Assembly (NCBI RefSeq): GCF_030540775.2
Contig: NZ_CP141266.1
Location: 709,501-773,500, forward strand
DNA from: Flavivirga abyssicola
GTDB lineage: Bacteria > Bacteroidota > Bacteroidia > Flavobacteriales > Flavobacteriaceae
Reading direction: 5' to 3'
DNA: 64,000 nt
The notes under the pieces were generated by a model. It searched no databases. It was not told the origin of the DNA and saw nothing but the letters and a program-made list of their open reading frames with translations. This document shows, piece after piece, positions 6,803-21,708 of this stretch (its first letter is position 1; each line of letters starts with the position of its first letter). A program made the translations under genes and the position numbers.

Positions 6803-7759
6803 ATGAAAAAATATATTATTTTAATATTAAGTCTAATTCCGTTACTCACATATTCTCAAGCCAATAAGTTCTATAGAAAAGCTATAAGAGAAACCGATTT
6901 AAATGAAAAAATAAACCTCTTTACCAAAGCTTTAGAATTAGATTCCAAAAACTTAGATGCTTATTTCTATCGTGGTATTGCAAAAAATGATTTAGGAGAT
7001 TATCATGGTGCCATTGTTGATTATTCTAAGATTATTGTACTAAAACCTGATGCTGATACTTATTATAATAGAGGAAATTCCAGATACAGTTTAAAAGATT
7101 TTGTTGGTGCCAAAAATGATTATAGCAAATCCTTTGAATTAGATTCCACCTTCATTGATGCCTTGTATAGTCTTGGCTGTGTAAAATACGATTTAGGAGA
7201 ATATAAAGACGCTATAAAAGATTTTAGTAAGGTTATAAAAGCGGTTCCCAATCAGCCAAAAACATACACTTTAAGAGCTGCTGCACATAAAGCTTTGAAA
7301 GCATACAAAAAAGCATTAAAAGATTATTCTTTAGCTATTATAGCAGAACCAAGTGCTCATAACTTCTATAACAGAGGCGTATTTTATATGGAGATTAATT
7401 ATTACCAAAAAGCTAACACCGATCTGTCTACTGCATTAAGAATCAATAGAAATAATACATATGCATACTTTTATAGAGGGGTATCTTATTTATTATTAGG
7501 TAAATTTAATACTGCCATTTCAGATTTTTCTACAGCATTGAAATTTGATACTACAGATTTTGATGCACTCCTTGGCCTGTCATTAGCTTATTACAAAATT
7601 GGAGACATTCCTAATGCTAAATTGAATTTGCAAAAGGCAAAATCTATACTATCTCCAGAAAAAGACATAGAGTCTATAGATTTATTTGCTAATACCTATT
7701 GGTTTCAAAATCAGTATTTTTATTTTAATAATAATATGAATCCCATATTAAAATTATAG
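6803..7759 (+). CDS. Secreted/periplasmic tetratricopeptide repeat protein
   Basis: 318 residues starting at the ATG that gives MKKYIILILSLIPLLTYSQ, a typical signal peptide. A TTG 18 bp upstream is in frame but would put charged residues before the signal. The mature part is seven to eight TPR units with the recurring pattern YxxRGxxxxxLgdyxgAIxDYSkxI (for example YYNRGNSRYSLKDFVGAK and YFYRGVSYLLLGKFNTAI). TPR arrays act as protein-protein scaffolds; no enzymatic domain is present. Convergent with rsmG, 8 bp from its stop, and divergent from the large T9SS gene. The specific partner is unknown. Confidence 0.85.
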   Translation: MKKYIILILSLIPLLTYSQANKFYRKAIRETDLNEKINLFTKALELDSKNLDAYFYRGIAKNDLGDYHGAIVDYSKIIVLKPDADTYYNRGNSRYSLKDFVGAKNDYSKSFELDSTFIDALYSLGCVKYDLGEYKDAIKDFSKVIKAVPNQPKTYTLRAAAHKALKAYKKALKDYSLAIIAEPSAHNFYNRGVFYMEINYYQKANTDLSTALRINRNNTYAYFYRGVSYLLLGKFNTAISDFSTALKFDTTDFDALLGLSLAYYKIGDIPNAKLNLQKAKSILSPEKDIESIDLFANTYWFQNQYFYFNNNMNPILKL

Positions 7760-11182: not shown

Positions 11183-14100
11183 ATGCTAAAAAACCTCATT
11201 TCATTTATTATATCCATTTCATGTGTATTCGGGTGGTCGCAACATATTAAGTTTGAAAGTTTTGAAACGAGTTCTGGGCTGTCCAACAATTCGGTGATAG
11301 ATATTGAAAATGACCCGGATGGGGGACTTTGGATTGCCACTTGGGATGGTTTAAACTATTATGATGGCTACGAATTTACAATTTATAAACATGACGTTAA
11401 CGATAACACCTCAATCCCCGGCAACTATATCGTTAAATTAAAAAGGGACAACGCAGGTTTTATATGGATTTTCACTCGTGGGGGTCATGTAAGCAAATAC
11501 ATTGGAAATAATAAATTTCAAAACTTCAAATTTGATGAAGCTGTAAAAAGAATGGAGGTTTCCAAAAAAGGAAATATTAGTATTCAAACAGCAAGTAAAA
11601 ATTATGAGTTTATCGATAAGACCTTTAAAGAAGCAACAGCTTTAGATATTAAGCGGTCAGATCAAAAAACACTTAAGGACATTCTTTTAAACAAATATCC
11701 AAATGTAATTATAAACGATATTCTTAAAGATAAATCTGGAAATATTTGGTACGCCACACGCACAAATGGTCTGTACATCATTCCTAATAATTCAGAAAAC
11801 ATTAACAATGAACAAATAGACCATTATACATATGATCAATATTCAAACTATAGCTTTAAAAGTAATGAAATAGAAAAATTACACGAAGATCTTTTTGGAA
11901 ATATTTGGCTGGGACACAAAGATGGCGGGATTAGTATGGCTTATACTAATTCAGAACAAATAACATCAGTGACTCCCCACCCAAAAAAATTTCCTCATTT
12001 ACCAAACGAAACGTTACGCGCCATTACGAAAGATTTAAAAGGAAATTTATGGTTAGGCTACTACACATCAGGGCTTTTCACATATAGTACAAAAACAAAA
12101 TGTTTTATTAAATTCCATATAAATGAAGCCAAAACACAACCCGATTGGAATCGTATTAGAACACTTTTTACAGCATCAGATGGCACTATATGGGCAGGAA
12201 GTTATGCTGGACTTATTCACATAAAACAGGGGAGCTATTCATTATACAGTTCGAAAAACATCCCGGAATTGCCCAACAATAGAAACTATTCAATATATGA
12301 AGATACAAATAAGCAATTATGGATTGCTTGCTGGGGTGGTTTGGCTAAATTTAATATCAAAAAAAACCGTTTCGAAGTATTTAAAGGGCAGGAATCTTTA
12401 GTATCATTTAATATAAGAGATGTCAAAATAATAGATAATGAAGCGCTTATTGCAACAGAAAATAATGGGCTTATTATATTAAATCTATCTACAGGAAAAC
12501 GAACAGCTATTACTACAAATCATGGGCTATTAGGCAACAGTATCTATTCTATTTATAAAGATCAGGAATCTGGGTTTTACTGGATTGCTTCTTTAGGAGG
12601 TGTGAGTATTTATGATAAAAACCGAGGTATTATTAAAAACATAACCGAGAAAGAAGGTTTACCAAGCCACTTGGTGTTTGGGATAATTGATAATAACGAT
12701 AAAATTTGGATAAGTACCTCTAAGGGCATTGGCACGATAGATAAAAAAGATTTCTCTGTGTTTTCTATTAATCCAAAAGCAGGTTGGCAAGCTACAGAAT
12801 TTTCAGAAGGTGCATATTATCAAGATTCTAAAGGAATGCTCTTCTTTGGAGGCATCAATGGCTTAAACTACTTTAAACCCAGTAGTATTAATTTTAAGAA
12901 AAATAATCCATTCTTAAAATTAATAATAGATGGCAATGAAAAATATTCAGACTTTATAGAAAAACGATATTCCAATAACAAACTAGAAGTAAAAATTAAG
13001 CCTATCATTTTTCCTAATCCAAAACATGCAAAAGTATTTTATAAACTTAATGATATTGATAAAGCATGGAAACTTTTAGATCCTTCACAACATATAACAT
13101 ATGAAAACTTACCTTCTGGCCATTATGAGTTTTGGGTAAAAAATGGCGTAGACGACTTAGAACCTTCAATGGTTTTATCATTAAAAATACTGAAGCCTTT
13201 TTATAAGATGGTATGGTTCTACATCTTGCTAATCGTTACCATTCTTTTAGCGTCCAGCTATATTGTATATGTACGAAATAAAGCTATTAGGGTTCAAAAT
13301 AAAAAATTAGAAGAACTTATTGCCAAGCGCACATTAAAAATAGAACACCAAAAAGAAATTTTATTAACTAAAAACAACCTGTTGGATGAAAAAAATAAAG
13401 AAATCGTATTACAAAAAGAAAAGCTTTTAAAGCTTCATAACGATTTAAAGGATGAAGCTTTTGAAATTGAAAAGTTTAAAACCTTTGTTTTAAATGAGTT
13501 TAGAACGCCTATAACAGAAATTATTAAAACAGCTTACGATATTCAAAATACTCCCGAAATTAAGGATACATTACTTCATCAATCTGGAAAACTAATTAAT
13601 TTGATTTCTGAATGGCACCATTTAGATCGCATTAAGGATATTGGTGACTACAAAGTAACATCCATAAATTTATTACCTATCGTTAAATACTTTATCGAAA
13701 AGATAAAAATGGTACTTCAGGCTTCTAAAATTAATTTTAACTGCGAAATTAGTTCAAAAATATCATGGGTAGAAATTGATATTTTAAGGTTTAAGCTACT
13801 CATGCAATATTTCTTTCATGATATTATAAAATATTCCGATTCAGAAAGTTCATTACAAATTATCATTAATTATGAAAATGATACATTAGATATTAAAATA
13901 ACATCTAACAGCAGTACTTTAAAAAACAATTGGTACAATATTCAACACTATAGTCCCTATTTTAAAACTGTAAAAGTGCTGCTTAATGATTTGGATGCGA
14001 ATATATCCAACCATATTCAAGAGTTTTTTAACACATCATTTTCAATTCCTGCAATTAAAGTGGATACGGATGTTGAAATTATACAAGCTGTTTCCTGGAA

Positions 14101-14911
14101 GCATCTCAATATTGATGATAAATCTTCTCTTGAAAAGGATAACACCATACTTGTCTACGGAAATGTAAACGATTTTGAAATCGTTAATCAATTATTGAAT
14201 CATAATCAATATAATATCTTTTTTGAAAGTAATATCAATGATTTTCTATCGGCTATTAAAAATATCGACATTGATATTGTAGTTCTATATCAGACTGTTT
14301 TCTCTAACAAGCTCATTTCATTATTAAACAGCTTTAAAACACAAGCTAATCAACGAAAAACACCTATAGTTTACATTTCTGAAGATATTAATTATGAGTT
14401 ACAAGAACAATCTGTAGAATTAGGGATAGATAGTGTTATACAATTACCCGCAAGTAAGACATATATTAACAAAAAGATAAAAACTCTTATAAAACAGAAA
14501 GATACTAAAAGTGATAATACATTACAGCAAGAAGTTTTTCAGATTCTAACAGACAAGAAAGAAGTATTAACCCCTAATGACAAGCTAATTAAAAAAAGTC
14601 TAAACATTGTAAAAGAACATTTGCATGATGCTTCGTTTAACGTAGAAAAATTAATAACACTACTGGAAATATCCAATATTAAATGTTATCGTTTATTTAA
14701 AGAAACTCTAAACCAATCCCCATCAGATGTTATCACTAAATTAAGACTGGAAAAGGCCTGCTATCTTTTAAAGACCAAAAATCTAAACATTTCTGAGGTT
14801 AGCTTTGAATGTGGTTATAACAATCCCAAATATTTCGGACGTCTATTTAAAAAACACTTCAACATAAGTCCAAAAGCTTTTAAAGAGCAACAAACAGAAA
14901 AAAATTATTAA
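11183..14911 (+). CDS. Hybrid two-component-like regulator (two-component propeller, degenerate kinase and receiver, AraC HTH)
   Basis: 1242 residues in the architecture of Bacteroidota hybrid two-component systems. Signal peptide (1-20, ending FGWSQ), beta-propeller Reg_prop repeats (about 20-590, LWIATWDGLNYYDG and similar), Y_Y_Y domain (about 600-670), one membrane span (about 677-698), a coiled coil, a kinase-like region, a receiver-like region (about 985-1100) and a C-terminal AraC-type HTH (about 1140-1240, with ISEVSFECGYNNPKYFGRLF). The expected phosphoacceptor His is Asn771 (LNEFRTP), no DxGxG ATP-lid motif is visible, the receiver Asp position holds Tyr1036, and the conserved Lys is Leu1088. 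The periplasmic sensor and DNA-binding ends look intact. It lies directly upstream of susC/susD, its presumed targets. Confidence 0.9.
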   Translation: MLKNLISFIISISCVFGWSQHIKFESFETSSGLSNNSVIDIENDPDGGLWIATWDGLNYYDGYEFTIYKHDVNDNTSIPGNYIVKLKRDNAGFIWIFTRGGHVSKYIGNNKFQNFKFDEAVKRMEVSKKGNISIQTASKNYEFIDKTFKEATALDIKRSDQKTLKDILLNKYPNVIINDILKDKSGNIWYATRTNGLYIIPNNSENINNEQIDHYTYDQYSNYSFKSNEIEKLHEDLFGNIWLGHKDGGISMAYTNSEQITSVTPHPKKFPHLPNETLRAITKDLKGNLWLGYYTSGLFTYSTKTKCFIKFHINEAKTQPDWNRIRTLFTASDGTIWAGSYAGLIHIKQGSYSLYSSKNIPELPNNRNYSIYEDTNKQLWIACWGGLAKFNIKKNRFEVFKGQESLVSFNIRDVKIIDNEALIATENNGLIILNLSTGKRTAITTNHGLLGNSIYSIYKDQESGFYWIASLGGVSIYDKNRGIIKNITEKEGLPSHLVFGIIDNNDKIWISTSKGIGTIDKKDFSVFSINPKAGWQATEFSEGAYYQDSKGMLFFGGINGLNYFKPSSINFKKNNPFLKLIIDGNEKYSDFIEKRYSNNKLEVKIKPIIFPNPKHAKVFYKLNDIDKAWKLLDPSQHITYENLPSGHYEFWVKNGVDDLEPSMVLSLKILKPFYKMVWFYILLIVTILLASSYIVYVRNKAIRVQNKKLEELIAKRTLKIEHQKEILLTKNNLLDEKNKEIVLQKEKLLKLHNDLKDEAFEIEKFKTFVLNEFRTPITEIIKTAYDIQNTPEIKDTLLHQSGKLINLISEWHHLDRIKDIGDYKVTSINLLPIVKYFIEKIKMVLQASKINFNCEISSKISWVEIDILRFKLLMQYFFHDIIKYSDSESSLQIIINYENDTLDIKITSNSSTLKNNWYNIQHYSPYFKTVKVLLNDLDANISNHIQEFFNTSFSIPAIKVDTDVEIIQAVSWKHLNIDDKSSLEKDNTILVYGNVNDFEIVNQLLNHNQYNIFFESNINDFLSAIKNIDIDIVVLYQTVFSNKLISLLNSFKTQANQRKTPIVYISEDINYELQEQSVELGIDSVIQLPASKTYINKKIKTLIKQKDTKSDNTLQQEVFQILTDKKEVLTPNDKLIKKSLNIVKEHLHDASFNVEKLITLLEISNIKCYRLFKETLNQSPSDVITKLRLEKACYLLKTKNLNISEVSFECGYNNPKYFGRLFKKHFNISPKAFKEQQTEKNY

Positions 14912-15013
14912 GACCAGATTACTCTAATGTTATGATAATGTTACTGTAATAAAAGTGCTGTTTTTTTAAATATTCTATCACATAATTTGAAAGATTTGTG
15001 CCTCCTCTTGAAA

Positions 15014-15021
15014 TAATTTTG
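15014..15021 (+). promoter_or_regulatory. Putative -7 element of the susC/susD operon
   Basis: TAATTTTG matches TAnnTTTG, 57 bp upstream of the susC ATG, with a TTG 24 bp further upstream (14987-14989) as a possible -33. It lies within the 167-bp gap after the regulator gene. Confidence 0.45.
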
Positions 15022-15078
15022 CCCCCTAATCGGCACCCTATCAAATACATTTGAACAAACCAAAAAAAACAATTTAAC

Positions 15079-18000
15079 ATGATAAAAAAAATGTACTTTT
15101 TGCTTCTATTAAGTTTAGGGTTTGTGTCCTATACTTATGCGCAAACAACAATTAAGGGAACGGTAACATCTATTGATGGAATGCCTATCCCTGGAGTAAC
15201 CATAATTCCTAACAACCAAACTAGTTTAGGAGTATCAACAGATTTTGATGGTGGCTTTAATTTACAAATTAGTGAAGCTAGTGGTGTTGTATCTTTTTCG
15301 GCTATAGGCTATGCTTCCAAAGCATTAAACTACAGTGGCAATGCAACGATTAATGTACAATTAGATGAATTGGTAAGTGCTTTAGATGAAGTGCTTCTTA
15401 TTGGTTATGGATCTGCAAAAAAAGGAGATATTACCTCTGCCATTTCTAAAGTTGAAGATATTGAAACGATATCTAGCAGACCAGTATCTAATCTATCCGA
15501 TTTTTTACAAGGGAATATACCAGGTGTTACTGTATTACAAAACGGTGGGGACCCAACTTCTGCTGGAAAAGTATCCATTAGAGGACTAGGCTCTATAAAT
15601 CCTGGTTCTGAAAGTGTCTTAACAGTTGTTGATGGAGTGCCTTATTACGGCCCTGCTATAAACCCAAATGACATCGCTTCCGTTTCTGTTTTAAAAGATG
15701 CAGCAGCAGCTTCTATTTACGGTGCATTAGCCAGTTCTGGTGTTATCGTTATTGAAACAAAAAAAGGAAAAATAGGAAAGCCCAGAATTGCTATTGACAC
15801 CTACACTGGATTTAAAAAAGCGACCAATTTACCTACTGCTTTGAATGCAGAGCAACAAGCTGATGTTTACAATATAGCGACTGACAATGCTGGAGCTCCA
15901 AGAATGTCTGCTCATGATGCTGCGCAAAACCCATGGGGACAAGTAACAAGAACCAATTGGGTAGATGAAATTTTTAGATCTGCAGTAACAACAAATGTAA
16001 ATGCAAATGTTAGTGGTGCCGGAGATGGATATAACTATCTAACATCTTTTAGTTATAACACAACAGAAGGTGTGCTACAAGGAACAGATTTTGAACGTTA
16101 CTCATTTAGAGTAAAGTCAGATTTTGACCTTTCAAAAAGATTAACCATTGGGGAAAATGTTTACTTTTCACAAAGCAATGCTATTGGTACCAATACTATA
16201 AATGGCTATTCAGGAACTATTATCAATGCTATTTATATGCCATCTGCTGCTCCTGTTTATGACGAAGAAGGGTTATTTCATGGTGTAGCACCTTTTGAGC
16301 TTATTAACTTTGCAGGTGCATATGGTGATGTTTACAATCCTATGGCTTTATTATTGGCTCCCACAAATAAAAGACCTTCTACCTATATAAATGCCAATGT
16401 CTATTTAGATTATGAAATCATTAATGGGTTAAACTTTAAAACAAACTTTACATATTCTATTTCGCATGATAAAAGTAAAAGATTTGTACCTATAAGACCA
16501 GAATTAGGTAGAACAAACCTTACCAATTCATTAACACAAAGTAATGCGACTACAAACAGATGGATTTGGGAGAACCAATTAATATACAAAAAGGCTTTCG
16601 GAAAACACAACTTAGATCTTACAGCGGTGTATTCTTCTCAATTTAAAGATTTTGAGTTTTTAAGTCAACGAGGAGAAGGGTTTAGTTCGGAAGACAGTTT
16701 CAATCAATATTTAGGAAATGCAAATGTTTTAAGAAACCCTCAATCGGCTGCACATGAAGATGCCCTAACATCAGTTATAGGTCGATTAATGTATAACTAT
16801 AATAATAAATATTTTGCCAGCGGTAGTATTAGACGTGATGAAACATCAAGGCTATTTTTAGATAATCAATCGGATGTATTCTATTCAGCAACCCTAGGGT
16901 GGAAGATTTCTAATGAGTCATTCTTTAAAAGCGAACTTATAAATGATTTAAAATTCAGAGCTTCCTGGGGTCAAATAGGAAACATCAATTCAGTAAACTG
17001 GTATTCATTTAACGTACCATTAAGATCGGGAGATGAAATTATAGGAGAAGATGGCGCCCGAAATGACAAGTCTCTTTTTCAAGAATTACAATCAAATAAA
17101 AACTTAACATGGGAAACATCAGAGTCTATTAATTTTGGTCTGGATGCATCATTATTAAATAACGCTTTATCTTTTGTAGTTGACTATTTTGAAAAAAGAA
17201 CCAAGGATATGCTTTTACCAGGAGCAAGAGACCCACACATCGGTCTAAACCCAGCACAGGTAAATGGTGGCGAAGTTTTAAATCAAGGGTTAGAATTTGC
17301 GATTAATTATAAAAATAACATTGGTGATCTTAATTATGGTATTCGTGCCAATGCTTTTGCTTTATTAAACAATGAAGTTGTTAATTTAGATGGTTATAGT
17401 GAGAGTGGATCCAATTTTGTATTACCTGGAAACAGTGATGACCATTGGGTCAGAGGTGGTGTCTTAAGACCCTTCAGATCTGAAATTGGAGAAGAATTAT
17501 TTTCAAATTACTTAATCCCTTATTTGGGAATCTTCCAAAATCAAGCAGAAATTGATGCTTATGTTAAAGATGGTAATTTAATTCAACCTAATGCTGTACC
17601 TGGGGATTTTAAATTTCAGGATACGGATAATGACGGAGATATTGATGATGATGATAGAGTACACATGGGAAGTTATCAACCAAATTTGACATATAATTTT
17701 GCTTTTAATTTAGATTATAAAGGCTTTGATATGAATATGATTTTTCAAGGCGTTAGCGGATCCAAAGCGTTTAATGGCTATAAGTACACCACTTATAATG
17801 CAGCTTTACAAGGCTATAACCTAGACAGCAGAGTATTGAACGCATGGACACCTAGTAACACCAATACGGATATCCCTAGAATTTCAAGAAGTGATAACAA
17901 CAACAACTTTGGTAGAAACTCCAGCTGGTACTTAGAAAATGCATCCTACCTAAGGTTAAAAAATGTAACTATAGGCTATAATCTCCCAGTAAAAATAATG

Positions 18001-18168
18001 AACCGATTTATAGAAGGGTCTTCTTTGCGTATATATTTATCTGCAGAAAACCTATTTACTATTACTGATTATTCTGGAATGGATCCTGAAGTTGGCGGAA
18101 AAGGACTTGATGTCGCTAAATACCCATTATCAAAAACATTTACAACAGGTTTATCTTTAAAATTATAG
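15079..18168 (+). CDS. SusC/RagA-family TonB-dependent outer-membrane transporter
   Basis: 1029 residues. Signal peptide ending near YTYAQ, then a carboxypeptidase-regulatory-like domain (about 22-105, TTIKGTVTSIDGMPIPGVTI), a TonB-box-like segment (DEVLLIGYGSAKKGD), the plug domain (about 120-235, with GKVSIRGLGSINPGSE and SVLTVVDGVPYYG) and a 22-stranded barrel to the C-terminus. The family imports large nutrients through the outer membrane together with a SusD lipoprotein. The susD gene follows after 29 bp. The substrate cannot be read from the transporter, but the linked phosphatase suggests a phosphorylated compound. Confidence 0.95.
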   Translation: MIKKMYFLLLLSLGFVSYTYAQTTIKGTVTSIDGMPIPGVTIIPNNQTSLGVSTDFDGGFNLQISEASGVVSFSAIGYASKALNYSGNATINVQLDELVSALDEVLLIGYGSAKKGDITSAISKVEDIETISSRPVSNLSDFLQGNIPGVTVLQNGGDPTSAGKVSIRGLGSINPGSESVLTVVDGVPYYGPAINPNDIASVSVLKDAAAASIYGALASSGVIVIETKKGKIGKPRIAIDTYTGFKKATNLPTALNAEQQADVYNIATDNAGAPRMSAHDAAQNPWGQVTRTNWVDEIFRSAVTTNVNANVSGAGDGYNYLTSFSYNTTEGVLQGTDFERYSFRVKSDFDLSKRLTIGENVYFSQSNAIGTNTINGYSGTIINAIYMPSAAPVYDEEGLFHGVAPFELINFAGAYGDVYNPMALLLAPTNKRPSTYINANVYLDYEIINGLNFKTNFTYSISHDKSKRFVPIRPELGRTNLTNSLTQSNATTNRWIWENQLIYKKAFGKHNLDLTAVYSSQFKDFEFLSQRGEGFSSEDSFNQYLGNANVLRNPQSAAHEDALTSVIGRLMYNYNNKYFASGSIRRDETSRLFLDNQSDVFYSATLGWKISNESFFKSELINDLKFRASWGQIGNINSVNWYSFNVPLRSGDEIIGEDGARNDKSLFQELQSNKNLTWETSESINFGLDASLLNNALSFVVDYFEKRTKDMLLPGARDPHIGLNPAQVNGGEVLNQGLEFAINYKNNIGDLNYGIRANAFALLNNEVVNLDGYSESGSNFVLPGNSDDHWVRGGVLRPFRSEIGEELFSNYLIPYLGIFQNQAEIDAYVKDGNLIQPNAVPGDFKFQDTDNDGDIDDDDRVHMGSYQPNLTYNFAFNLDYKGFDMNMIFQGVSGSKAFNGYKYTTYNAALQGYNLDSRVLNAWTPSNTNTDIPRISRSDNNNNFGRNSSWYLENASYLRLKNVTIGYNLPVKIMNRFIEGSSLRIYLSAENLFTITDYSGMDPEVGGKGLDVAKYPLSKTFTTGLSLKL

Positions 18169-18197: not shown

Positions 18198-19790
18198 ATG
18201 AAAAAAACAATTATAAAATTTGCAATGGTTACATTATTTGTTACTGTGACCACACTAGGAATAGTTTCATGTTCCGATGACTTTACAAACCTAGAACCCA
18301 TAGGTAGTGTCTCTTCAGGAAATTTTTGGAGAACAGAACAAGACGCCGTACAAGCATCAAATAGTTTGTATTCTGAAATGAAATCTCAAGATGTATTTGG
18401 TAGAGGGTTTTTCTGGTACATGAATGCTTCTGATGATATGATAACTGGGCGAATAAAATCGTATGCAGATAATGCTAAGAATTTCAATTTAACTGGAGGC
18501 GAAGGTGCTTTTAATAGTATATACATAAATACTTATAAAGTTATTCGCAGAGCAAATGATGTATTGGCTAATGTGCCAGATATGAACATTGATGAGCCTT
18601 TAAAAAACAGAATCTTAGGAGAAGCTTATTTTATGCGTGGGTTTAGTCATTTTTGGGTAGCTCATACTTATGGAGATCATGGGACAAATGGAGGGGTTCC
18701 AATTATAACTGTTGAGAATATGGACGATCCAGCAAGTAGTTTTTCACGCCCAGCAAGTGTTGTTGATAATTATGCTCAAATTGCTGAAGATTTAAAACAA
18801 GCAGCAGATCTATTACCATTATTTACCGGTTATAGTTCTGATGATTACGGAAGAGCACACAAAGATGCTGCACTGGCATATTTGGCAAAAACATATTTAT
18901 ATTGGGCACAATACGATAGCTCTAAATACGCAGATGCCGTAACCTATAGTGATGCCGTTACCAACTCTGGTTCTGGAAGAGCTCTGGTAAACACCAACAA
19001 CCCTGCTTTAGATTATAGAATGTTACACAGTTCTTTAAGCAATTGGGGTAGTGAATACATCTGGTCTGCAAACTCTAGTGAAGAAGGAGGCAGTATTTTA
19101 ACTGGCGTTATGTTAGAAAATAAAGGATGGGGTAAATATAACGGATGGGGCTACTTCCAGCCAACAGCTGAATTATACGATGCGTTTGAAGCTACAGATG
19201 TTAGAAGAAGCGTTACTATTTTAAAGTTTGGTGATGAGTTCCAATATTTTGGAGAAACCAGAAGATACCAATCTGAAAATTCACTATCAGGGTTTCAATT
19301 CAACAAGTACATGTACGAATTCCAATTTGCAGATGCCATTGGAAATACCGTAAACCCGAATGGAGACCATCCATCAACAGATTACAATGTTCCACTTCTA
19401 CGTTATGCCGAAATTTTATTGATAAAAGCTGAAGCATTAATCATGCAAGGTCAAAATGGTGATATTCCTTTAAATATGGTAAGAGAAAGAGCTGGTTTAG
19501 CACCTATAACTAGTGCTACTATGGACGATTTAAAACAAGAGAGACGTGTAGAATTAGCTGGAGAATTTGCCAACAGACATTTCGATTTAATTCGCTGGGG
19601 AGATGCCGAAAGCGCCTATGCACAACCACTTCATGGAAGAATACATACAGACAGAGCAGATCCAGATTCCCCCTATACCATTCAGGAAGTTTGGCCAGCT
19701 AGAAATTTTAATCCAGATGTTATGCATATTTGGCCAATACCAAATACAGTAATAGAATCTTCTGGCATCCCACAAAATAAAGGATGGTAA
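18198..19790 (+). CDS. SusD/RagB-family nutrient-binding surface lipoprotein
   Basis: 530 residues. Lipoprotein signal peptide with the lipobox ending at GIVSC, followed by SDDF, which resembles the acidic surface-export signal of Bacteroidota lipoproteins. The SusD/RagB helical TPR-like body follows, including ANDVLANVP, LGEAYFMRGFSHFW and, near the C-terminus, LLRYAEILLIKAEALI, KQERRVELAGEFANRHFDLIRW and WPIPN. It sits as the lid of the SusC barrel and captures ligand at the cell surface. Co-transcribed with susC; a terminator follows 39 bp after the stop. Confidence 0.95.
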   Translation: MKKTIIKFAMVTLFVTVTTLGIVSCSDDFTNLEPIGSVSSGNFWRTEQDAVQASNSLYSEMKSQDVFGRGFFWYMNASDDMITGRIKSYADNAKNFNLTGGEGAFNSIYINTYKVIRRANDVLANVPDMNIDEPLKNRILGEAYFMRGFSHFWVAHTYGDHGTNGGVPIITVENMDDPASSFSRPASVVDNYAQIAEDLKQAADLLPLFTGYSSDDYGRAHKDAALAYLAKTYLYWAQYDSSKYADAVTYSDAVTNSGSGRALVNTNNPALDYRMLHSSLSNWGSEYIWSANSSEEGGSILTGVMLENKGWGKYNGWGYFQPTAELYDAFEATDVRRSVTILKFGDEFQYFGETRRYQSENSLSGFQFNKYMYEFQFADAIGNTVNPNGDHPSTDYNVPLLRYAEILLIKAEALIMQGQNGDIPLNMVRERAGLAPITSATMDDLKQERRVELAGEFANRHFDLIRWGDAESAYAQPLHGRIHTDRADPDSPYTIQEVWPARNFNPDVMHIWPIPNTVIESSGIPQNKGW

Positions 19791-19914: not shown

Positions 19915-21708
19915 ATGTTATCAAATTTCAAAATATCTTTAAGTCTATTATTTTTAATAGTATCCAATGTATCAGTTTCACAAAACACCTATATACATTC
20001 CCATAATGATTATAAGCAAGACATCCCTTTTTGGCGGGCTTTAACCAGTGGGGCGAATTCAATAGAAATTGATGTTTTTTTGCAACAACAAAACTTATAC
20101 GTTGCTCATAGTAAACAGGAAATAGCACCTAAAAGGACTATTGAATCTTTATACTTAAAACCTTTAAAGGTAGCATTGGAAATGAAACATCGAGAACATC
20201 AATCATTATATCTACTGATTGATATTAAATCGGAAGCAACCACAACATTAAACAAACTTATTACAGTACTAAAACGCTATCCTTCAATAATTAATAATAA
20301 AAACATTAAAATAATTATATCCGGAAATAGGCCCTTAGCTAAAGATTATAGTAAATATCCTGATTTTATTTTCTTCGATTGGCAAAAAGCAGAAAAACCC
20401 GAATCGTTTATTAACTGGGAAAAGGTTGCTATGATTAGTTTAGATTTTAAAGCATACTCCGGTTGGAATGGAAAAGGCAGGTTAACCCATAAAGATTATA
20501 ATCAAGTGACAACTATCATCTCTAAAGCAAAGGCGACTAAAAAACCATTACGTTTTTGGGGAACACCAGATTCTAAATCTGCCTGGAAAGTTTTCTTAGA
20601 ATTAGGTGTAGATATTATAAATACAGATAAACCATACGAATGTGTTAATTATATTGAATCTTTTCCAAATAGATTAATAACATCAACGACATCTTCTGAA
20701 GTATATATGCCCAGTTTTAAATCAGATCAAAAACAACTGCCTGTAAAAAACATCATCTTCTTAATTGGAGACGGTAATGGCTTAGCTCAAATATCTTCTG
20801 CTGTTTTAGCTAATAATGGGAAATTATCTTTAACTCAATTGAAAAGTATTGGGTTAATAAAAACACAATCCGCGGACGATTTTATTACAGATTCAGCCGC
20901 TGGCGGAACCGCTTTTGCTACAGGTGTAAAAACAAACAACAGGGCTATTGGCACGAATATTAATGGAGAATCAATAAAAAACATCACAGAAATATTGCAT
21001 CATCGAGGCTTTTCTACTGGATGTATCACAACAGATGAAATTACTGGTGCTACGCCAGCATCATTTTATGCCCATCAAGCAGATCGATCTGACGTTAAAA
21101 ACATATCCAACGACCTTATACATAGCAAATTGAACTTGTTTGTAGGCGGTGGCGGTTTTCATTTTAAAAACACAGCTTTAAATCAAAAATTCAAACTGTT
21201 ATCATCTATTGAAAACATAAATACAAATCGGGAAGATAAAATTGGAGTTTTAGTTTCTAACGAAGGGATTCCTTCTGTAATAGGCGGCAGAGGAAACATG
21301 CTTGCTAATGCAACTAAATATGGGCTTCAATTTTTAAAGCAAAAGAAGAAACCTTTCTTTTTAATGGTAGAAGCTGCTCAAATTGATAGTTTTGGACACA
21401 GTAATAATACTGCCGGAATAATCTCTGAGACTATCGATTTTGATAAAGCCATAACAGAAGCACTGAAGTTTGCCGACAAAAACCCTGATACATTAGTAAT
21501 CATTACGGCAGATCATGAAACGTCAGGTTTTAGTATTCCGCAAGGAAACCTTGAAAATCATGTTATAGAAGGCGATTTTACAACACATGATCATACAGGG
21601 ACTATGGTACCTGTTTTTGCTTATGGCCCACAATCGCATTTGTTTTCAGGTGTATACGAGAATACAGAAATATTTCATAAAATACAGGAATGCTTGTTGA
21701 AAGAGTAA
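19915..21708 (+). CDS. Fusion of GDPD/PI-PLC-like phosphodiesterase and alkaline phosphatase
   Basis: 597 residues with a signal peptide (to about VSVSQ). Residues about 22-250 resemble the uncharacterised PI-PLC/GDPD TIM-barrel branch (HSHNDYKQDIPFWRALTSG, then SIEIDVFL). Residues about 275-597 are an alkaline phosphatase domain: metal-binding Asp286 in LIGDGNG, nucleophile Ser327 in DSAAGGTA, TTDEITGATP, EAAQIDSFGH, ITADHETSGF and HTGTMVPVFAYGP. The known chemistry of the halves is cleavage of phosphodiesters, then removal of phosphate from the resulting monoester. The gene is last in the SusC/SusD locus, so a periplasmic two-step phosphoester degradation is inferred. Whether the N-terminal domain is active is uncertain. 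Confidence 0.88.
   Translation: MLSNFKISLSLLFLIVSNVSVSQNTYIHSHNDYKQDIPFWRALTSGANSIEIDVFLQQQNLYVAHSKQEIAPKRTIESLYLKPLKVALEMKHREHQSLYLLIDIKSEATTTLNKLITVLKRYPSIINNKNIKIIISGNRPLAKDYSKYPDFIFFDWQKAEKPESFINWEKVAMISLDFKAYSGWNGKGRLTHKDYNQVTTIISKAKATKKPLRFWGTPDSKSAWKVFLELGVDIINTDKPYECVNYIESFPNRLITSTTSSEVYMPSFKSDQKQLPVKNIIFLIGDGNGLAQISSAVLANNGKLSLTQLKSIGLIKTQSADDFITDSAAGGTAFATGVKTNNRAIGTNINGESIKNITEILHHRGFSTGCITTDEITGATPASFYAHQADRSDVKNISNDLIHSKLNLFVGGGGFHFKNTALNQKFKLLSSIENINTNREDKIGVLVSNEGIPSVIGGRGNMLANATKYGLQFLKQKKKPFFLMVEAAQIDSFGHSNNTAGIISETIDFDKAITEALKFADKNPDTLVIITADHETSGFSIPQGNLENHVIEGDFTTHDHTGTMVPVFAYGPQSHLFSGVYENTEIFHKIQECLLKE

Follow-up and report, generated by a model that had tools for sequence, protein, structure and literature searches.

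A catalytically degenerate hybrid two-component regulator and its predicted organophosphate operon in Flavivirga abyssicola

How a hybrid two-component system (HTCS) regulator might still pass on a signal after its phosphorelay residues have been replaced is the question raised by a 64,000-nucleotide stretch of the Flavivirga abyssicola genome (contig NZ_CP141266.1, positions 709,501 to 773,500 of the forward strand). This whole stretch is referred to as the window, and coordinates are those of the window unless a locus of another genome is named. On its plus strand it carries, at 11183..14911, an open reading frame (ORF) with an ATG start for a protein of 1242 residues, here called the pseudo-HTCS regulator, of which 18 further members were found in other genomes. 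The answer considered likely here is that this catalytically dead HTCS serves as a membrane-anchored, one-component-like regulator of an organophosphate operon and signals by conformation. At the level of sequence this is supported by the loss of His, Asp, Lys and the ATP motifs in all 19 members, by purifying selection, by linkage to the operon and by an operator-like element that tracks the regulator.

Replacement of the phosphorelay residues

To locate the phosphorelay positions, the window protein was aligned by MAFFT with 15 orthologues and eight canonical HTCS paralogues of the same genome. In this alignment Asn771 stands at the phosphoacceptor His, Tyr1036 at the receiver Asp and Leu1088 at the switch Lys, all as proposed in an earlier reading made from the letters and translations alone (the sequence-only reading), and all eight paralogues carry His, Asp and Lys, respectively, at these positions. 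The placement of the His and Asp positions held up in MAFFT and, for the receiver, in a phmmer alignment to 12aw. A low-depth, receiver-only hhalign comparison with two compensating gaps put the receiver Asp two residues later; it was rejected in favour of the MAFFT and phmmer alignments, and there is no Asp or Glu at that alternative position either. The lack of a DxGxG motif was likewise borne out, with SNSST (908–912) at the G1 box. The acidic pair had been given as Tyr-Gly (Tyr992-Gly993) and proved to be off by one, the alignment giving Gly993-Asn994. That every phosphorelay residue is replaced, as had been stated, is correct for the His, Asp, Lys, acidic pair and ATP motifs and goes too far for the switch Thr, where Ser1066 is a conservative change, Ser being found there in one of the eight canonical paralogues as well. 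This Ser is the only receiver active-site residue kept in the window protein, and none of the kinase motifs (His, N, G1 and G2) is preserved. Losses beyond those noticed earlier are that of the N-box Asn, now Tyr876/Asp880, and deletion of the G2/ATP-lid segment.

The layout of the chain, all on the plus strand, is that of a HTCS, with a Reg_prop/Y_Y_Y sensor, a transmembrane (TM) helix, a cytoplasmic core and an AraC-type DNA-binding domain (DBD) on a single polypeptide. The N-terminus, presumably with a signal peptide, and the Reg_prop propeller sensor occupy residues 1–585 (11183..12937; six Pfam Reg_prop stretches, E 2.6e-25, boundary by eye), and the propeller is similar to the solved HTCS sensors 4a2l, 3v9f and 3ott. 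A Y_Y_Y domain (PF07495, E 1.8e-07) follows at residues 612–653 (13016..13141), and then the TM helix (677–697, from hydropathy) with an extended cytoplasmic stalk (698–764) at 13211..13474. Three degenerate domains come next. The counterpart of the dimerisation and histidine phosphotransfer (DHp) domain, or pseudo-DHp (765–830; 13475..13672), holds Asn771 (13493–13495). The counterpart of the catalytic and ATP-binding (CA) domain, or pseudo-CA (831–985; 13673..14137), holds the N-box, G1 and G2 changes and has no Pfam HATPase match. The pseudo-receiver (986–1105; 14138..14497) holds the changes from the acidic pair to the switch Lys, together with Glu1067 at the residue after the switch Thr (T+1). 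The AraC-type DBD closes the chain (1131–1242; 14573..14908; Pfam HTH_18 E 2.2e-18, with HTH_AraC also matched).

The sequence-only reading had described the full HTCS architecture with an intact propeller sensor, and this stands for the layout, the Reg_prop repeats and the AraC output. The sensor itself is shortened: because the membrane helix begins at about residue 677, against 780–830 in the eight paralogues (hydropathy), the periplasmic part is some 100–150 residues shorter than theirs. The reading frame and helix-turn-helix (HTH), also called intact, are so, the ATG-initiated frame being open over all 1242 codons and the AraC-type HTH being matched by Pfam. The stalk between the TM helix and the H-box is about double the canonical length, with 74 residues here and 72–78 in the 19 members compared with 33–41 in the paralogues, and 13 of its columns are invariant across the 19.

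Among the Pfam matches of the ORF, taken up to an E value of 10, there was neither HisKA nor HATPase, and the Response_reg match (PF00072) stayed below threshold (15.9 bits against a cut-off of 30.2, E 0.015). Comparison with a canonical HTCS core by hhalign gave a probability of 96.8 and an E value of 3e-10 for the whole core (a single comparison), with probabilities of 84 for CA, 91 for the receiver (REC) and 64 for DHp taken alone. By this measure the homology of the degenerate core to that of a HTCS can still be recognised. Its DHp-CA region, homologous to a kinase and with the kinase functions apparently lost, corresponds to a pseudo-histidine kinase, and its receiver-like domain, from which the phosphoacceptor Asp and further active-site residues are missing, to a pseudo-receiver (PsR, or ALR domain).

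Conservation and selection across the family

All 19 members lie within one taxonomic family, 16 of them in 397 sampled genomes of that family. The 16 orthologue-bearing genomes, the window genome included, come from 13 of 237 genera, and identity ranges from 43 to 88% (E <= 1e-150); the weakest orthologue scored 1108 bits, with nothing between it and the threshold. At E <= 1e-60, matches were obtained in six of 296 genomes sampled from the order and five of 395 from the phylum, which added the other three members, all from genus g146 of the same family. Intermediates with some of the catalytic residues were absent from the matches at E <= 1e-60 in these 296 order and 395 phylum genomes, weaker matches not having been searched. 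A maximum-likelihood tree of the sensor and DBD, built without the degenerate core and without a sensor-less copy (locus L110), placed 18 members in one clade with 100/100 support against the canonical rows, which are the eight paralogues of the window genome only and carry a long-branch warning. The three g146 members were added to the alignment with MAFFT --keeplength, and a 305-residue AraC-like ORF of locus L111 was excluded from the TM comparison, the tree and the residue counts.

The losses are shared throughout. Counting residues over the homologues, as the sequence-only reading had proposed, showed the H-box His to be absent in all 19 (Ser in 13, Ala in five, Asn in the window protein), the receiver Asp to be Tyr in 19/19, the switch Lys to be Leu in 19/19 and the residue after the switch position to be Glu in 19/19. 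Neither the N-box Asn pair nor the G1 Asp and Gly occurs in any member; in every one Tyr replaces the first N-box Asn and Ser replaces the G1 Gly, and the G2/ATP-lid columns are gaps in all. The eight canonical paralogues retain the His, N-box, G2, Asp and Lys without exception. Because all 19 members found share these losses, they are not a matter of chance, and the comparative evidence indicates that the regulator probably signals without phosphorylation, by conformational change only.

Selection was assessed from the ratio of nonsynonymous to synonymous substitution rates (dN/dS), calculated with a Nei-Gojobori script against the closest orthologue (L056, 88% identical). This gave 0.115 for the propeller, 0.083 for the TM helix and coil, 0.133 for the pseudo-DHp, 0.216 for the pseudo-CA, 0.119 for the pseudo-receiver, 0.048 for the DBD and 0.124 for the whole gene. 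The dead core is thus under purifying selection (about 0.12–0.22 by domain) and the DBD is the domain under the tightest constraint. In the sensor, 119 of 585 columns are invariant (16 orthologues; L040 ignored before residue 181). ATG-initiated ORFs of 1220–1246 residues are found in 17 of the 19 copies, and the L040 copy has a full-length open frame of 1243 residues with a later first ATG. A degenerate HTCS drifting towards a pseudogene might have been expected from the lost catalytic residues, the patchy distribution and one sensor-less copy. Against such decay stand the full-length frames in 18 of 19 copies, dN/dS values far below 1 in every domain, operon linkage at all 19 loci and retention of the operator; the pseudogene hypothesis was rejected on these grounds and is given next to no credence. 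The earlier preference for a working regulator over a decaying gene is in agreement with this, and is further supported by the existence of a 19-member family.

Within the pseudo-receiver, where mean pairwise identity is 39.8% (16 orthologues), only five of 120 columns are invariant in the 19 members (E1015, Y1036, E1067, L1088 and P1089). Four of these five are the old D, T+1, K and K+1 positions, with new residues in three (Tyr1036, Glu1067 and Leu1088), a pattern recognised post hoc and to which no P value is attached. As judged from this alignment, the old active sites are re-specified, not eroded. A tentative extension, rated at somewhat less than an even chance, is that the ATP and phosphoryl pockets have been rebuilt as new groups of invariant residues, Tyr876/Ser910 in the kinase relic and Tyr1036/Glu1067/Leu1088 in the receiver relic, which would act as a mechanical relay or as a new binding or modification site, the whole HTCS chain having become a one-component transmembrane allosteric switch.

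The same invariant residues could also point to a new chemical input, with the pocket Tyr1036/Ser1066/Glu1067/Leu1088 either modified (for example by a tyrosine kinase acting on Tyr1036) or binding a cytoplasmic molecule, and an internal signal such as phosphate status joining the propeller signal. The invariance of Tyr1036, Glu1067 and Leu1088 in 19/19 while the rest of the pseudo-receiver diverges speaks for it, as does the proposal that a Ser, Thr or Tyr in place of the Asp, together 12% of ALRs, could be phospho-regulated (PMC4395418). A buried aromatic/aliphatic pair in place of Asp/Lys is, however, equally expected of a packed, inert core, the genes conserved at the locus (susC, susD and the GDPD/phosphatase gene) include no kinase, and conservation is the one sequence feature that would support ligand binding. 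Such an input is regarded as unlikely.

A further loss concerns the junction with the DBD. The REC-DBD motif S/CHIP-DK has been tied to phosphorylation-relieved autoinhibition (PMC11253607). Here it reads RKTP, with Asn1132 for the D and Leu1171 for the K, so that this interface is not preserved; the full motif is found in 0/19 members, and the S/C, the D and the K are each found in none. A constitutive or expression-controlled activator would be one outcome of this, with REC-DBD autoinhibition lost, the operator always bound and control exerted through the level of the protein or another input, e.g., PhoB. In its favour, besides the lost motif, S/CHIP-DK substitutions gave phosphorylation-independent DNA binding in BT4124 (PMC11253607), and one member without the propeller retains the TM helix, stalk, core and DBD. 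The propeller present in 18 of 19 members, the invariant sensor columns and the low dN/dS of the TM helix and stalk would all be unneeded without sensing, and a constitutive activator is considered improbable.

The susCD operon and its candidate operator

Downstream of the pseudo-HTCS regulator and on the same strand lie its three predicted target genes, a susC-like gene for a TonB-linked outer membrane transporter (15079..18168; TIGR04056 E 9e-242), a susD-like lipoprotein gene (18198..19790; SusD_RagB E 2.1e-30) and a gene for a GDPD-type/alkaline phosphatase fusion enzyme (19915..21708; Alk_phosphatase E 8.1e-62, GDPD_2 (PF13653) E 4.1e-10). Genes for SusC, SusD and GDPD/alkaline phosphatase follow the regulator on its strand at all 19 loci, and at the window locus and all 15 of the orthologue loci examined the order is susC, susD and then an enzyme with alkaline phosphatase and GDPD-type parts. 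At the three g146 loci SusC is only 31–32% identical to that of the window, a SusD-family protein is present in all three (Pfam), and the alkaline phosphatase/GDPD-type enzyme is 38.7–65.5% identical to the window enzyme, with one extra ORF in between at L110.

Among 397 genomes searched with the window SusD, 23 gave a match, of which 16 carry the regulator and seven do not. The seven loci without a pseudo-HTCS (L094–L100) have no HTCS just upstream and in every case a FecR protein instead (Pfam), with a sigma-70-type factor in both of the two tested and a longer SusC of 1110–1151 residues. One transporter family is thus found with regulators of two types, FecR-type and pseudo-HTCS, that are unrelated to each other. 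A GDPD/phosphatase-type enzyme directly follows susD in only one of the seven, L100; an alkaline phosphatase is nearby at L094 and L096, and at the remaining four none was seen in the approximately 20 kb examined. The Flavobacterium johnsoniae operon PUSII (Fjoh_3249-3252) comprises PusCD2, a FecR-like regulator and PhoA1 with an extra PF13653 domain and is induced by depletion of inorganic phosphate (Pi) (PMC8115612). At the window locus, too, an alkaline phosphatase with PF13653 adjoins a SusCD-like pair, and where PUSII lists its FecR-like regulator this locus has the pseudo-HTCS instead. Because the L100 arrangement matches PUSII and the window enzyme carries PF13653, the window operon is best read, by analogy, as a PUSII-like organophosphate operon under a different regulator.

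Between the regulator and susC, a scan of 16 loci revealed a predicted operator of four RTTA boxes with an 11-bp period, ATTAAGACCAG ATTACTCTAAT GTTATGATAAT GTTACTGTAAT (14907..14950, plus strand), which overlaps the stop codon of the regulator gene. Over the 16 loci the four boxes score 249 of 256; in 100 dinucleotide shuffles the score averaged 176 and never exceeded 184, and seven other periods gave 168–188. When the window is divided into 278 tiles of 230 bp, 276 of them score no higher than 13, one scores 14 and one 16, the latter being by position the operator tile. The exact pattern RTTA-N7-RTTA-N7-RTTANYGNAAY has a single match in the 4.68-Mb genome, with four further places at one mismatch and one match for a reversed control pattern. 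This exact three-box pattern occurs in 12 of the 15 other regulator-bearing genomes. The 15 genomes hold 16 exact matches in all, 12 of them at the regulator-susC junction and one before a second susC at L059.

The four-box element precedes susC at all 19 loci, scoring 15 of 16 at each of the g146 loci despite their divergent SusC, and is at background (10–12) in all seven FecR-type SusCD loci. From its retention at the former and its background score at the latter it follows that the element tracks the regulator and not the transporter. Three known HTCS operators are direct repeats with a step of 20–21 bp (PMC3878776), and by analogy this step would be matched if each AraC monomer took up two boxes and a dimer all four. 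Upstream of the regulator gene itself no four-box element was seen, the best scores on the two strands being 12 and 13 of 16, which is background and gives no sign of autoregulation.

PhoB binds 11-bp direct repeats, and the RTTA element might instead be a Pho box for PhoB, with the regulator acting elsewhere. The 11-bp direct repeat would suit a PhoB-type site, a point which also counts against the reading favoured here, and the operon resembles the Pi-depletion-induced PUSII. The PstS model TIGR02136, used to look for a Pst-linked Pho box, had no match in the window genome while matching 13 of 14 control genomes. Against a Pho box stand the one exact site in this genome, with four at one mismatch, and the position of the 16 exact matches elsewhere, 12 at the regulator-susC junction and one before the second susC. 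The element is, moreover, at background in the seven related SusCD loci without the regulator and is kept where SusCD differs, and little probability is assigned to a PhoB site.

Downstream of the boxes, an alignment of the 16 intergenic regions and its position indicate TACATTTG (15046..15053, plus strand) as a candidate −7 element; it resembles the Bacteroidota −7 consensus, TAnnTTTG. Many of the 16 loci share a second conserved block (TTTTGAAAC ... TTTnTGAAAC; 14984–15021 in the window) that separates the boxes from the −7-like element. Two of the exact three-box matches in other genomes (G402 and G083) have near-identical letters and may be one coding sequence.

Proposed mechanism and relation to known systems

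In the proposed mechanism an organophosphate, or a ligand from its breakdown (the class of ligand being suggested by the operon), would bind the periplasmic propeller/Y_Y_Y part of a presumed dimer. The resulting movement would pass through the membrane helix and the unusually long stalk into the pseudo-DHp/pseudo-CA/pseudo-receiver scaffold, which would reposition the two AraC domains with no His-Asp phosphotransfer, phosphorylation in vivo presumably being absent. The AraC dimer, taken to be what binds the boxes, would then occupy the four RTTA boxes before susC and switch on susC, susD and the GDPD/alkaline phosphatase gene, activation being the direction that we infer.

Several observations weigh against this mechanism. 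The distribution is patchy, with the regulator in 16 of 397 genomes of the family sample and in two of 12 genomes of the window's own genus (E <= 1e-200). One copy (genome G620; L110, 9563–11410, minus strand) has 615 residues, with most of the propeller and Y_Y_Y missing in frame; in that lineage the regulator either can do without sensing or is on its way to being lost. The second position of the acidic pair (DD2) is Asp or Glu in ten of the 19 members, the window protein not among them, and the switch position is Ser in 18 and Ala in one; because of these two features some residual or non-canonical modification may persist, and the invariant Tyr1036 could itself be phosphorylated. The His of the SHIP motif is kept in two of the 19 and its Pro in most. 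The exact three-box pattern is absent in three of the 15 other genomes, where the elements score 14–15 of 16, and it is present in G420 (L106, approximately 7041–7073) away from the pseudo-HTCS locus.

Two of these cases may be described further. The G620 copy keeps the N-terminus, TM helix, stalk, dead core and AraC domain and represents a natural sensor-less variant. The G420 element sits between two divergent ORFs, whose products by eye resemble a LacI-type regulator and an oxidoreductase.

The Bacteroides HTCS regulators BT4124, BT4663 and BT1754 are like the pseudo-HTCS in their propeller/Y_Y_Y sensor, TM helix, DHp-CA-REC-like core, AraC DBD, susCD adjacency and direct-repeat operator. 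They differ in that the phosphotransfer residues, ATP lid and S/CHIP-DK motif are lost here, and in that the operon here is of a phosphorus type and theirs of a glycan type. Close in kind is BT4236, a HTCS whose kinase His is replaced by Gln848 and whose motif reads CSIP-EK, for which a phosphorylation-independent mechanism has been suggested (PMC11253607). The lost phosphoacceptor His and the deviating REC-DBD motif are common to both; BT4236 is a single Bacteroides thetaiotaomicron protein for which the consulted part of that paper names changes in the His and the motif only, whereas the 19 members here have jointly lost kinase, ATP site and receiver. BT4236 was the only HTCS with a lost His found in the open-access literature searched.

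Pseudo-receivers, or ALR domains, share with the protein described here a receiver relic without the Asp, Lys and acidic pair and an adjoining DNA-binding domain (PMC12632262; PMC4395418). Here, by contrast, the relic shares its chain with a dead kinase and a periplasmic sensor of its own, and the old active-site columns are among the few that are invariant. One estimate puts pseudo-receivers at about 6% of bacterial receivers, and the His is missing from 0.9% of HisKA domains (PMC12632262). Among pseudo-histidine kinases, DivL (PMC4211667) and ChrS (PMC9491836) keep a kinase relic for signalling, as would be the case here; DivL acts in a network of separate phosphorelay proteins (PMC4211667), unlike the present regulator, in which the output would pass in cis to the AraC domain. 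With pseudo-receivers, His-less HisKA domains and BT4236 on record, the kind is already known. No description of a conserved HTCS family that has an operator of its own and has lost kinase, ATP site, receiver and autoinhibition motif together was found in the open-access literature searched.

The activation and inactivation of bacterial pseudo-receivers were called a mystery in a 2025 review (PMC12632262). The present family unites sensor, pseudo-kinase, pseudo-receiver and DBD in one polypeptide and comes with a predicted operator, a predicted operon and 18 homologues, which makes phosphorylation-free signalling on a two-component scaffold directly testable. The results also suggest that on their organophosphate SusCD operons Bacteroidota swap one type of regulator for another, FecR-type and pseudo-HTCS being the two seen here.

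Some minor features of the operon loci should also be noted. The wider gene neighbourhood is common only to the window and the two nearest loci, L056 and L057. At L059 (13013–19803) a second susC-susD pair lies inside the operon with its own four-box copy, and the GDPD/phosphatase is split in two; this second pair is similar in size to the pair at the g146 loci. Genes for metallophosphoesterase, purple acid phosphatase-like or PI-PLC-X proteins flank five orthologous operons (L058 3933–5423, L061 3920–5023, L063 14515–16083, L067 4155–5138 and L069 14530–16038), making up five of the nine flanking genes scanned in other genomes, which fits a phosphodiester-scavenging role.

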